Assembly (NCBI GenBank): GCA_017744365.1
Contig: JAGIBL010000003.1
Coordinates: forward strand, 62,001-126,000
DNA from: Nocardioidaceae bacterium
GTDB lineage: Bacteria > Actinomycetota > Actinomycetes > Propionibacteriales > Nocardioidaceae
Direction of reading: 5' to 3'
DNA: 64,000 nucleotides
Positions 42,092 to 48,317 of the stretch are shown here, piece by piece. The notes below the pieces were generated by a model that searched no databases, had not been told where the DNA came from, and worked only from the letters and a program-made list of their open reading frames with translations. Numbering within the stretch: the first letter of the stretch is position 1; each line of letters starts with the position of its first letter. A program made the position numbers and the translations under genes.

Positions 42092-42322
42092 GTGATCCGC
42101 TTCGTGGTCTTCCTGCTGCTCCTCGCCGTCGCGCTGTACGGCGTGTTCTGGGCGATCGACCGCAGGAACAACAACGGATCCGGCCCCTCGTCGCGCCCCT
42201 CCCCCCGTGGCCCTGTCGGCCCGGACGACGACGAGAGCTTCCTGCGCGACCTCGAGCGCCGGAGGCACAACCCGACGGATCGGCACCCGCCCGACCGGCC
42301 CGAGAACCCAGGAGATTCATGA
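42092..42322 (+). CDS. small single-helix membrane protein
   Basis: This 76-residue protein has one N-terminal membrane segment ([21 protein letters not shown]) followed by an acidic, Pro/Arg-rich tail. The GTG at 42092 is chosen over the adjacent GTG at 42089 because TACGCT (42080-42085) lies six bases before it, the leaderless spacing seen at other genes here. Its stop overlaps the glutathione peroxidase start (ATGA). Function unknown. Confidence 0.7.
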
Positions 42323-42801
42323 CCAGCCTCAGCGACTTCTCCGCGACGACCCTCACCGGACAGGAGCAGGACCTCGCGGCCTACGCCGGCAAGGTGGTGC
42401 TCGTCGTCAACACGGCCTCGCAGTGCGGGCTGACCCCGCAGTTCTCGGGCTTGGAGAGCCTCTACGAGAAGTACGTCGACCAGGGGCTGGTGATCCTCGG
42501 CTTCCCCTGCAACCAGTTCGCCGGGCAGGAGCCGGGCGACTCCGACGAGATCGGCGCGTTCTGCCAGAAGAACTACGGGGTCAGCTTCCCGATGTTCGAG
42601 AAGATCGACGTCAACGGCGGCGACGCGCACCCGCTCTACCAGTGGCTCAAGACCGAGAAGGGCGGCCTGCTGGGCGACGCGATCAAGTGGAACTTCACCA
42701 AGTTCCTGGTCGGCAAGGACGGGCAGGTCATCAAGCGCTTCGCGCCGACCACCGAGCCGGAGAAGCTGATCCCCGACATCGAGGCTGCGCTCGCCTCCTG
42801 A
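42319..42801 (+). CDS. glutathione peroxidase (thiol peroxidase)
   Basis: The enzyme is a 160-residue non-selenium GPx that reduces peroxides, in bacteria usually with thioredoxin. The catalytic tetrad is visible as Cys36 (TASQCGLT), Gln70 (FAGQEPG) and Trp124-Asn125 (IKWNFTKF). A GGAGA ribosome-binding site precedes the ATG. It is coupled to the small membrane protein upstream. Confidence 0.92.
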
Positions 42802-44328: not shown

Positions 44329-45123
44329 ATGAAACTTGCTGCTCTCGGTGTGGTGGCGATGGGCGTCGGCGTTGCGCTGACCGAGCCCGGACTGATCGGT
44401 ATCGGCGCGTTCTGGGTGCTCATGGGGCTCCTGGCGCGCGTCCACGGGCAGCGGCTCAAGGAGCTGCAGGCCCAGAACAAGGCCGAGGACGAGAAGGCGA
44501 AGCCCGCGATCGACGGGCGCACGTTCGCGCTCGGCACGGCACTCTGGCTCGGGCTGGGACTGCCGTCCCTGGCCGTCGGCCTCTTCGAGATCGGCATCAG
44601 TGCCGAGCACGAGGACTGGCGCTGGCTGCCGATCGTGGTCGGCGGGTTCGCCCTGGGCATCGGTGTGGTGAGCGCGATGCTCTACCTGCTCGGCGGCGCT
44701 GCCCTCAAGGTCGCCGAGCGCGGTCCGGCCAAGACCGTCCCGGCCACGGTCCGGATCCGGGCGATGCGCGAGACCGGGACCTACATCAACGAGCGCCCGC
44801 GGCTGGAGTTCGAGCTGACCGTCGAGCCCGAGCCGGCCAGCGGCGTGGCGTCGTACGAGGTCACGAAGAAGGCGACGGTGCCGTTCACGGCCATGGGCTC
44901 GCTGCGCGTCGGCGACGGGTTCCGGGCGCGGGTCGCCGGCCCGGAGGAGCCCACCGCGATGGACATCTTCTGGGACGAGCCGGTCTCCGCGACCGCGGCG
45001 AGCGGCGCCGAGGACACCGACGTCTCCACGCGGCTCGACGAGCTCGACCGGCTGCACCGGGAGTCGAAGATCAGCGACGAGGAGTACCAGGCGCAGCGCG
45101 GAAGGATCCTGGGATCCCTCTGA
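44329..45123 (+). CDS. SHOCT-domain membrane protein
   Basis: The 264-residue product has two membrane segments near the N-terminus, two more at about 66-88 and 100-122, a beta-rich cytoplasmic or extracytoplasmic region, and a C-terminal SHOCT motif (LDELDRLHRESKISDEEYQA). TAGCCT (44315-44320), overlapping the HxlR stop, lies eight bases before the ATG. Function unknown; SHOCT segments are thought to mediate oligomerisation. Confidence 0.75.
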   Translation: MKLAALGVVAMGVGVALTEPGLIGIGAFWVLMGLLARVHGQRLKELQAQNKAEDEKAKPAIDGRTFALGTALWLGLGLPSLAVGLFEIGISAEHEDWRWLPIVVGGFALGIGVVSAMLYLLGGAALKVAERGPAKTVPATVRIRAMRETGTYINERPRLEFELTVEPEPASGVASYEVTKKATVPFTAMGSLRVGDGFRARVAGPEEPTAMDIFWDEPVSATAASGAEDTDVSTRLDELDRLHRESKISDEEYQAQRGRILGSL

Positions 45124-45166
45124 TGTAGCCATGGACGTGGTCCGGCGGTAGTGCCAGCGTGGTCCC

Positions 45167-46546
45167 GTGACGCTGACCGTCGACGTGGACTACCTCGTGG
45201 TGGGGGCCGGTGCCATGGGCATGGCCTTCACCGATGCGCTCATCGAGCACGCCGACGTGCGGGTGGCGCTGGTCGACCGCCGGCACGCCGTCAGCGGGCA
45301 CTGGCTCGAGGCCTACCCCTTCGTCCGGCTGCACCAGGCCTCCGCCTTCTACGGCGTCGGCTCGACGCTGCTCGGCGGCGGTCAGCTGCAGCAGCGCGGA
45401 CCCGAGAAGGGCCTGCAGGAACGCGCCACGCAGGCGGAGATCTGCGCCTACTACGCGCGGACGCTCGACCGGATGGTCGCCTCGGGCAAGGTCGAGTTCT
45501 TCCCCAACAGCGAGTACGCCGGCGACCGCACGGTCGTCTCCCGGATCTCGGGCAAGCGTTTCGCGGTGCCCGAGCGCTGCCGGATCGTCGATGCCCACTA
45601 CCTGGCGCCCAGCATCCCGGCCGAGAAGCCGGCGCCGTTCGACGTCGCCGCGGACGCGCGGGTGCTGCCGGTCAACAGCCTGGCCCGGCTCGAGGACGCG
45701 CCGGGCCAGTACGTCGTTGCCGGGTCGGGCAAGACCGCCACCGACGCGTGCATCTGGCTGCTCTCGCGCGGAGTCGATCCCGACGCGATCTGCTGGGTGC
45801 GGCCACGCGAGCCCTGGATGATGAACCGGGCCGTGGTCCAGCCGGACCCGGCGGTCTTCACCGGTATGGCCGCCGACACGATGCAGGCGGGCGCCGCGTC
45901 GGTCTCGCTGGAGGACCTGTTCCTCCGGCTCGAGGACGCCGGCATCATGCTCCGGATCGACCGCACCGTGCTGCCGACGATGGCCAAGGCGCCGACCCTC
46001 GCCGCGTGGGAGCTCGACGAGCTGCGCACCCTCGAGAACGTCGTACGACGGGGGCACCTCGTGTCCGTCGGTCGCGGCAAGCTCACCTTCGGTGACGGAT
46101 CGGTCGCGGTCGCCGACGACGCGGTGGTGGTGCACTGCGCGGCGGACGGCCTGAAGTACCCGCCGCTCGTCCCCGTCTGGCGGCCGGACGGGATCACGCT
46201 GCAGGCGATCAGAGCGGGGTTCCCGTGCTTCGGCGCTGCCCTCGTCGGCTACGTCGAGGCGACCCGTCGCGACGACGACGAGAAGAACCGGCTCTGCCCG
46301 CCGACGGGCTACGGCAACTCGATGGCGGACTGGGCCCGGATGAACGTCCGCGGCACCCAGGCGGTGCTGTCCTTCATGGCCGAGCCCGACATCAAGGAGT
46401 GGGCGAGCCGGGTGGCGATCAACCCGGCGCGGATCCCGCCCGAGCACCCGGGCTCCGCGGCGCTGGACGACGCTCGCGAGCGCCTCGCACAGCACCTACG
46501 ACCTGGGCTGGCCCGGCTCTCCGAGCTGAGTGGTGCTCAGGCGTAG
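45167..46546 (+). CDS. FAD/NAD(P)-binding oxidoreductase
   Basis: This 459-residue protein starts with a dinucleotide-binding motif (YLVVGAGAMGMAF) and has a second, partial one (YVVAGSGKTATDA), as in pyridine-nucleotide-dependent flavoproteins. The rest is not diagnostic, and no substrate is evident. Its last codons (SGAQA) and TAG stop at 46544-46546 fall inside the left 34-base repeat of the SIR2 cassette, so the original 3' end may have converged with ccsB. Confidence 0.8.
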   Translation: MTLTVDVDYLVVGAGAMGMAFTDALIEHADVRVALVDRRHAVSGHWLEAYPFVRLHQASAFYGVGSTLLGGGQLQQRGPEKGLQERATQAEICAYYARTLDRMVASGKVEFFPNSEYAGDRTVVSRISGKRFAVPERCRIVDAHYLAPSIPAEKPAPFDVAADARVLPVNSLARLEDAPGQYVVAGSGKTATDACIWLLSRGVDPDAICWVRPREPWMMNRAVVQPDPAVFTGMAADTMQAGAASVSLEDLFLRLEDAGIMLRIDRTVLPTMAKAPTLAAWELDELRTLENVVRRGHLVSVGRGKLTFGDGSVAVADDAVVVHCAADGLKYPPLVPVWRPDGITLQAIRAGFPCFGAALVGYVEATRRDDDEKNRLCPPTGYGNSMADWARMNVRGTQAVLSFMAEPDIKEWASRVAINPARIPPEHPGSAALDDARERLAQHLRPGLARLSELSGAQA

Positions 46547-46568
46547 GAGTGCTGGCTCCCGGAGCCGA
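46535..46568. repeat. left direct repeat of SIR2 cassette (ccsB 3' end)
   Basis: The first 26 bases (46535-46560) are identical to 48284-48309; after three mismatches (46561-46563) another five match. Read on the minus strand it encodes GSGSQHSYA and a stop, the exact C-terminus of CcsB. The mismatch is a serine codon (TCC here, AGT in ccsB). A small palindrome GGCTCC-C-GGAGCC (46554-46566) spans the edge of the repeat. Confidence 0.85.
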
Positions 46569-46623
46569 CCGGGACGAATCGACCTTCGCGACGATTCACG
46601 CCACCGGGGGCCCCGCGGACCCC

Positions 46624-46629
46624 TACAGT
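46624..46629 (+). promoter_or_regulatory. -10 element of SIR2 gene, leaderless start
   Basis: TACAGT lies eight bases before the GTG at 46638. The short region before it (46569-46623) contains an inverted repeat GAATCG (46576-46581) with CGATTC (46592-46597), which may be a terminator for the upstream gene or an operator. I see no clear -35. Confidence 0.5.
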
Positions 46630-46637
46630 CGGCCCCC

Positions 46638-48278
46638 GTGGACCACAGCCGTGCCGATCTGCAGAAGTTCCTCTACCGCAAGGGCAAGCCGCTCTGGCGC
46701 GAACCGCGGGTCCGCGGGTTGATTGAGGGCCTGGCGGCCGAGACCGACCTGACGTTGTTCCTGGGCGCGGGCACATCGGTCGCGCTGGGCATGCCGACGT
46801 GGAACGAGCTCCTTCGTCGCATGCTCGTCCAGAGCGCCACGCGGGCGCGGCGGCTCGACGAGGAACGCCGCGGTCCGTGGGCCGCGCGGATCGTCGAGAC
46901 CTACGACTCGCTCGCCGCCGCGTCGGTCCTGCGGTCGGACTACCGGCGTCCGGAGACGTTCCGAGCGGACCTGCGCAAAGCCCTCTATGCGGCCAGTCCC
47001 GAGCCCCTGCGCGACGAGTACCGCATCGCGAGCGGGTACGCCGAGGCGATCTGGTTCCTGGTCCGGGAGCGCCTGCGTGCCGGCCGCACGACCTCGATCG
47101 TCACGATGAACTTCGACGACTCCCTCGAGACCAGCTACCAGAACCTCGACCGGGCCGACCAGCTCCGTGACCTGGGGATCAAGAGGGTCGTCCCGGTGTA
47201 CTCGCAGGAGACCTTCGACAAGACCGTGGGCAAGGAGTCGCTCTTCCCGATCTACCACCTGCACGGCTACGTGCCCCGCGAAGGTCTGCCGAAGGTCGAG
47301 CCGCAGACCTTCGTCCTCTCGGCGGCCGAGTTCGCCGACGCCGTATCCGGCCACTGGAGCGAAGCCGCGATCGACCGGCTCGCCCCGTCCCAGTGGCTGA
47401 TGGCGGGCATGTCGTTCCAGGATCCGCACATCACCTGGATGCTGCGCAGGCGATCGCGCTCCATCGCGCTCGCGGCCGCCTCGAGCGCGGGCACCGACCG
47501 CGTGGCGTCGACTTGGGCGTCGCGGCCGATCGGGCTGTTCTCGGCCCAGGGACGTGGCTGGTTCTCCAACGAGCTCGATGCGGGCACGCTGCAGATGCTG
47601 GCGGAGGCCGAGCAGAAGCGGCTGGGCGAGCTCGACATGCTCGCCGTCGCGACGTCGTACTTCTTCCAGGAGGTCGTGTTCCTCGAGGAGATCGGCCACC
47701 AGGCAGGAGGCGTGACGGCGCACTACGGCGATCGCGTGAACCTCTGGCGGAGCACGCTCGACCTCGACGCGGACGAGCGCACCTCGCTCGAGGACGATCT
47801 CCGCGAGGTTCTGTCCCACCTGCGCGACGCGCTGGAGGAGGACCTGTCTCTGGGCCCCGACGAGACAGTCGAGAAGGTCAAGGTGGAGCTCTGGATGCGC
47901 GACTTCAAGAGGCCGGAGACCGTCTGGCTGTGGATCTCGACCGAGTCCCGGTTGCTCGACACCGCACGGGCGCCGCGCTTCGCCTTCAGCCCCGAGTCCA
48001 AGATCGCCGCCATCCGCGCGCTCACCTTTGGCACCGCGGAGCGGGCGGACCGGTCGTCCTACACGGCGGACGACGCGTGGAAGTCGTACTTCGCCCACCC
48101 GGTCCGGCTGCGAGGCGGACCGGCGGATCGGATCAGCGTCGGCGCCCTCGTCGTCGCCACCGGTCAGCCCGTGGACAAGTCGAGGCTGCACGGTGCGATC
48201 GACGACTTCCAAGACCTGCTCGACGACGCGATCGCCGCCGTCGCCGTTCGGCTCCGCGATCTCACCGCGGATCGCTAG
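46638..48278 (+). CDS. SIR2-like domain protein, putative anti-phage NADase
   Basis: The N-terminal part (about 36-270) has the SIR2_2-type fold: LTLFLGAGTSVALGMPTWNEL (in two parts) with GAGTS at 43-47, IVTMNFDDS (Asn158, Asp160) and IYHLHGYV with the candidate catalytic histidines 207 and 209. The remaining 270 residues match no domain I recognise; the last 120 resemble a GAF-like sensor fold (DRISVGALVVATGQPV). SIR2 domains of Thoeris, DSR and other defence systems deplete NAD on infection. The product is 546 residues from the GTG at 46638. A defence role is inferred from the family and the cassette context. Confidence 0.8.
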   Translation: MDHSRADLQKFLYRKGKPLWREPRVRGLIEGLAAETDLTLFLGAGTSVALGMPTWNELLRRMLVQSATRARRLDEERRGPWAARIVETYDSLAAASVLRSDYRRPETFRADLRKALYAASPEPLRDEYRIASGYAEAIWFLVRERLRAGRTTSIVTMNFDDSLETSYQNLDRADQLRDLGIKRVVPVYSQETFDKTVGKESLFPIYHLHGYVPREGLPKVEPQTFVLSAAEFADAVSGHWSEAAIDRLAPSQWLMAGMSFQDPHITWMLRRRSRSIALAAASSAGTDRVASTWASRPIGLFSAQGRGWFSNELDAGTLQMLAEAEQKRLGELDMLAVATSYFFQEVVFLEEIGHQAGGVTAHYGDRVNLWRSTLDLDADERTSLEDDLREVLSHLRDALEEDLSLGPDETVEKVKVELWMRDFKRPETVWLWISTESRLLDTARAPRFAFSPESKIAAIRALTFGTAERADRSSYTADDAWKSYFAHPVRLRGGPADRISVGALVVATGQPVDKSRLHGAIDDFQDLLDDAIAAVAVRLRDLTADR

Positions 48279-48283
48279 TGCCG

Positions 48284-48317
48284 GCTCAGGCGTAGGAGTG
48301 CTGGCTCCCACTGCCGA
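48284..48317. repeat. right direct repeat of SIR2 cassette, within ccsB
   Basis: This is the copy that still forms the 3' end of ccsB (codons for GSGSQHSYA and the stop at 48288-48286). It matches 46535-46568 at 31 of 34 positions. Confidence 0.85.

Follow-up and report, generated by a model that had tools for sequence, protein, structure and literature searches.

A lone SIR2 gene between two copies of the ccsB 3' end in a Nocardioidaceae genome: a one-gene insertion with att-like ends

How does a single gene come to lie between two copies of the end of its neighbor? The question is raised by a 64,000-nucleotide stretch of contig JAGIBL010000003.1 from a Nocardioidaceae bacterium (assembly GCA_017744365.1), hereafter the window, in which a SIR2-like gene is enclosed by a direct repeat of the 3' end of the cytochrome c biogenesis gene ccsB and is preceded by a flavoprotein gene. 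An earlier, sequence-only reading had proposed that the SIR2 gene is a cassette inserted at ccsB. The present analysis showed that the insertion is real, comprises one gene and has att-like ends; among the genomes examined, it was found only in the source genome. To explain its arrival, we tentatively favor a model in which a minimal element of 1,749 bp, with the SIR2 gene as its sole cargo, would have integrated into the ccsB 3' end through att-type recombination.

The two copies of the repeat (46535-46568 and 48284-48317) are identical at 31 of 34 positions, the first 26 without exception, and correspond to the 3' end of ccsB including its stop codon (GSGSQHSYA-stop on the minus strand). Base composition alone would lead one to expect about 2e-5 exact repeats of at least 26 bases per 64-kb window, and the 26-base core is the longest among the 32 exact repeats of at least 16 bases detected in this one. 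Counted from one repeat to the other, the unit spans 1,749 bp, and the 1,723 bp between the copies hold only one family-matched gene, SIR2 (SIR2_2, PF13289, E 8.6e-10). When the flanks were joined in a script, the flavoprotein (459 aa) and CcsB (300 aa) genes were both complete and convergent, with an overlap of 10 bp. The sequence-only reading was therefore accurate with respect to the repeat, its derivation from ccsB, the lone gene and the converging, overlapping neighbors. The possibility of a dispersed repeat, which it had raised against itself, was rejected since the 4.76-Mb genome contains two copies and no third at up to 3 mismatches. Neither the open reading frames nor the family matches revealed a transposase gene within the unit, and no terminal inverted repeats were observed at its two ends among the best 25 of 28 pairs (minimum length 16). 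What the unit does possess are att-like direct repeats at the 3' end of a gene.

CcsB was detected in 93 of 98 genomes, the source genome included, with a best full-length foreign match of 74% identity (76% over part of the protein). In 20 genomes of the genus we inspected the sequence downstream of ccsB, over approximately 10 kb in 19 of them and 3 kb in one. No second copy of the genome's own ccsB end was present in any of these; the best candidates on either strand matched at 19-25 of 35 bases, versus 29 of 35 in the source genome. The outcome that would have refuted the cassette reading, namely all relatives carrying SIR2 and both repeats, was hence not observed. Because SIR2 and the flavoprotein both went undetected in the 20 ccsB regions, and likewise in the loci of 29 relatives up to 1.5 kb from ccsB, these two genes look like additions. 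The only SIR2 match in 23 other genomes of the genus was a 41-residue stretch. The interval next to ccsB is variable and is bounded on the left by a gene that we take to be glutathione-peroxidase-like (gpx-like). Eight of the 20 relatives have a homologue of this gene on that side of ccsB, no more than 5 kb away; in these the interval is between about 20 bp and 4.2 kb long (less than 0.4 kb in four) and has unrelated contents, and the corresponding distance in the source genome (42801-48286) is 5.5 kb. The suggestion that relatives would reveal an empty site or other cargo was upheld only insofar as the SIR2 unit was missing from them. No exact empty site, with the flavoprotein adjoining a single ccsB end, occurred among the available relatives, the nearest of which (only about 74% identical in CcsB) also lack the flavoprotein there, and no other cargo lay between two ccsB ends in the 20 regions. 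A degenerate pattern of the ccsB end was also run against 335 genomes of the family; among the matches listed, only the source genome had two mismatch-free copies on one contig, and a second genome (G012) had two on different contigs.

In the model that we favor, the incoming DNA would have carried a ccsB-end sequence of up to about 34 bp, attP-like and originating from another ccsB allele. Campbell-type recombination between this sequence and the resident, attB-like ccsB end would have generated the two repeat copies as attL- and attR-like products, so that both flanking genes retained their stop codons. The recombinase would have been located outside the unit, and either lost or acting in trans. 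We infer both the site-specific nature of the recombination and its direction.

One feature of the three mismatches between the repeat copies had escaped the sequence-only reading. They are adjacent and fall in a single ccsB codon, which specifies Ser in both copies (TCC on the left, AGT on the right). At this position relatives have AGC, TCC, TCG and others, with TCC in the genus members G020 and G002 and AGC in G007 and G018. Since the mismatches amount to one synonymous codon at which relatives vary, the left copy probably derives from a different ccsB allele, as judged from the sequences, and chance is possible too. In simulated random decay of identical copies, three changes were synonymous and within one codon in 6.5e-5 of cases; random decay across 34 bp after a recent duplication of the target is thus unlikely unless the homology stops at base 26. 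A new duplication of the target would explain an allele-like left copy less well than either an attP-like end on the incoming DNA or recombination between alleles, and it is the Ser codon that raised the odds of the att model.

Several results weigh against the att model. Should the homology end at base 26, the allele argument fails, as 0.9% of random 8-mers from the window keep the frame and 3.7% give at least 5 of 8 identities. No integrated element was present at the ccsB end in the 20 relatives. An integrase core site with inverted arms was rejected, the best arms matching at 6 of 7 positions, which is equaled by 15% of random 34-mers. The earlier statement that the cassette has no recombinase held for the inside of the unit, where there are neither recombinase nor transfer genes, and none of the genome's six PF00589 matches is located on the SIR2 contig (serine recombinases were not searched). 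Furthermore, the SIR2 gene had no match in phages, viral contigs contained no close or confirmed SIR2 relative, and an exact 18-bp core of the repeat was absent from them. A single weak plasmid match came from Klebsiella (26% identity over 42%); with these results, a phage, plasmid or viral origin was rejected. A search of 84,980 species for close SIR2 homologues returned 13 pattern stretches, of which none was confirmed, and the exact 24-base ccsB end occurred in one other record, a Marmoricola metagenome-assembled genome, as a single copy; the collections searched here may omit the source genome itself.

To see how common such flanking repeats are, we surveyed 791 kb of the genome. Self-comparison gave 42 pairs, and among the best 30 that were listed (at least 44 bits) 16 were examined, the other 14, mostly runs of related domains, being set aside. 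In 12 of the 16, translation of both copies in a shared coding frame gives what reads as a common protein motif. Three are situated at host boundaries: the ccsB end, C9:505752/507068 and C9:28738/35501 (C9 being the SIR2 contig). The last encloses a second insert (C9:28738-35586, 6.7 kb), which holds genes for an Rhs-repeat protein (1,847 aa) and for Tpt1/KptA and no recombinase. Its 86-bp repeat, 97.7% identical, contains the 5' ends of both neighbors, which are of the Polyketide_cyc2 and EamA types. Of 19 genus relatives, 10 have homologues of these neighbors in divergent orientation and at most 1.5 kb apart. The surveyed sequence thus contains two recombinase-less inserts bounded by duplicated host gene ends. 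At the remaining host boundary, a 62-bp exact repeat (C9:505752-507129, copies 1.3 kb apart) is att-like and by sequence reading resembles a tRNA 3' end with terminator; ARAGORN reported no whole tRNA in the region around it. The one other pair among the 16, a 27-bp exact repeat (C9:225748/235461), belongs to neither group and has copies 9.7 kb apart that share only an opposite-strand open frame.

These inserts would be compatible with capture in the absence of any recombinase, whereby Ku-dependent end joining inserted a SIR2 fragment where the ccsB end had undergone a staggered double-strand break, and fill-in of the overhangs duplicated the 26-bp target. The existence of two such inserts, one of them elsewhere on the same contig, together with a Ku protein encoded in the genome (PF02735, E 4.2e-53), raised the odds of capture, and differing targets and repeat lengths are easier to reconcile with one unspecific process than with two site-specific ones. 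Overhangs of 26 and 86 nt are, however, long, and the adjacent synonymous change would be improbable as neutral decay (6.5e-5) unless homology stops at base 26. We consider capture possible, if rather doubtful. The more general proposal that this lineage takes up single genes and toxin or defense cassettes independently of recombinases at gene boundaries, duplicating 26-86 bp of target and leaving the neighbors intact, with SIR2-GAF as one passenger and a new single-protein defense architecture, appears unlikely.

Two adjacent ccsB alleles could also have arisen without a recombinase if SIR2-ccsB DNA from a relative had replaced the resident ccsB by homologous recombination on one side and illegitimate recombination on the other, 34 bp of the old end being left at the left junction. 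The left copy would then be the native one, yet it is the right copy that G007 and G018 resemble (AGC). Moreover, SIR2 was beside ccsB in none of the relatives examined, and ccsB, ResB and the gpx-like gene all have G018 among their best matches, so that no mosaic is evident (a weak test without close strains). We regard this replacement as quite improbable.

It was also considered whether the flavoprotein gene is the newcomer, having brought a foreign ccsB end with it and inserted upstream of a SIR2 gene that was already there. Its stop codon falls inside the left repeat, and the gene itself is probably a single-gene acquisition, judging from its distribution: homologues occur in 124 of 335 family genomes (E up to 1e-20), the best at 87% identity in another genus of the family, versus 63-70% (five genomes) and 39-41% (two genomes) within its own, and DNA similarity in the 19 loci compared is restricted to about 45120-46538, the length of one gene. 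None of these 19 loci, however, has ccsB within 1.5 kb, and since the C-termini of the homologues vary in length, the position of the flavoprotein end decides nothing. This scenario is very unlikely in our view. Partial DNA similarity (60-80%) to the flavoprotein region (45129-46528) was noted in six plasmid records. The next four genes leftward are of the SHOCT-like, HxlR, RibD_C and PNPOx types.

The product of the SIR2 gene contains the motifs GAGTS, TMNFDD, HLHG and GMSFQD. N158 (TMNFDD) and H209 (HLHG), whose type we take to be catalytic, are both invariant in a six-row alignment. The predicted role in phage defense is based on the fold and these motifs. The most likely product is an enzyme that degrades NAD+ upon infection, in which the SIR2 domain would hydrolyze NAD+ once the C-terminal GAF-like domain senses a trigger, as suggested by analogy with GAF domains and the sensor of ThsA; the divergent protein may in this way arrest or kill the cell through loss of NAD+. 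Counting against this proposal, H209 is not invariant across a wider eight-row alignment, the C-terminal model has a mean pLDDT of 60 with TM-scores of matches no higher than 0.45. Pfam identified no GAF domain by sequence in the SIR2 protein or three homologues. The best PADLOC match was a ThsA model, over 28 residues only (E 4.4e-6), and Dsr1 scored E 0.049. The start was set at GTG 46638; the open reading frame listing has another in-frame GTG upstream, at 46530. The positions of all features are compiled in Table 1.

Table 1. Features of the SIR2 locus, in window coordinates.
Feature	Position	Strand	Remarks
SIR2 gene, 546 aa	46638..48278	+	Predicted SIR2 NADase fold (model residues ~16-369) and GAF-like C-terminal domain (~380-546, weak model)
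Left ccsB 3'-end copy	46535..46560	-	26-bp exact core; similarity extends to 46568, Ser codon TCC for AGT
Right 26-bp core copy	48284..48309	-	Today's ccsB 3' end (48286-48309) plus 2 bp
ccsB, cytochrome c biogenesis protein, 300 aa	48286..49188	-	Intact; TIGR03144 E 2.6e-60, 204.3 bits vs cut-off 187.6
Flavoprotein gene, 459 aa	45167..46546	+	NAD(P)-binding Rossmann-like; Pfam NAD_binding_8 E 1.6e-4
gpx-like gene (presumed glutathione-peroxidase-like)	42319..42801	+	Left edge of variable interval
Candidate -10 element TACAGT	46624..46629	+	Would suit leaderless SIR2 transcription; proposed from spacing only

As a functional mini-element, the unit would carry defense on very little DNA, a single gene entering the end of a housekeeping gene harmlessly. 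Recombinase-free capture would instead make it, with the Rhs/Tpt1 insert, a concrete and testable case of defense and toxin genes entering chromosomes outside known mobile elements. Under either reading, the SIR2 protein that it encodes is divergent and may have a sensor built in.

The claim that such a cassette has not been described could be retained for its size, target and cargo, but not for its class. According to PMC5704250, att-flanked elements that have lost their integration genes are known as cis-mobilizable elements (CIMEs) and are described as decayed integrative and conjugative elements or integrative and mobilizable elements. The SIR2 unit resembles CIMEs in its att-like direct repeats, which include a gene 3' end, and in the absence of integration genes inside. 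It differs in being 1.75 kb in length with one gene, in its protein-coding target ccsB and in its mobility, which is only putative. Nor was a linked element found: none that shares its att site came to light as a third repeat copy in the genome, a PF00589 match on the contig or an insert at the ccsB ends of the 20 relatives. Our literature searches retrieved no paper on ccsB as attB or as an integration site with an integrase, and none combining SIR2, a GAF domain, NADase and a defense system. Within the same genome, the Rhs and Tpt1/KptA insert (C9:28.7-35.6 kb) is likewise a recombinase-less insert between duplicated host gene ends, and is distinguished by its 86-bp repeat, its divergent-promoter target and its larger cargo.

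With respect to the cargo, the protein shares the SIR2 fold and motif residues with the NADase effectors ThsA, DSR2 and KomC, from which it diverges in sequence (12-18% identity in the listed structural alignments). Unlike in Thoeris and KomBC, no ThsB or KomB gene adjoins it, its neighbors being the flavoprotein gene and ccsB, and no partner gene of the DSR2, SIR2-HerA or KomBC systems is adjacent. Finally, ThsA has a SLOG domain at its C-terminus, whereas the SIR2 protein has a predicted GAF-like domain in that place.
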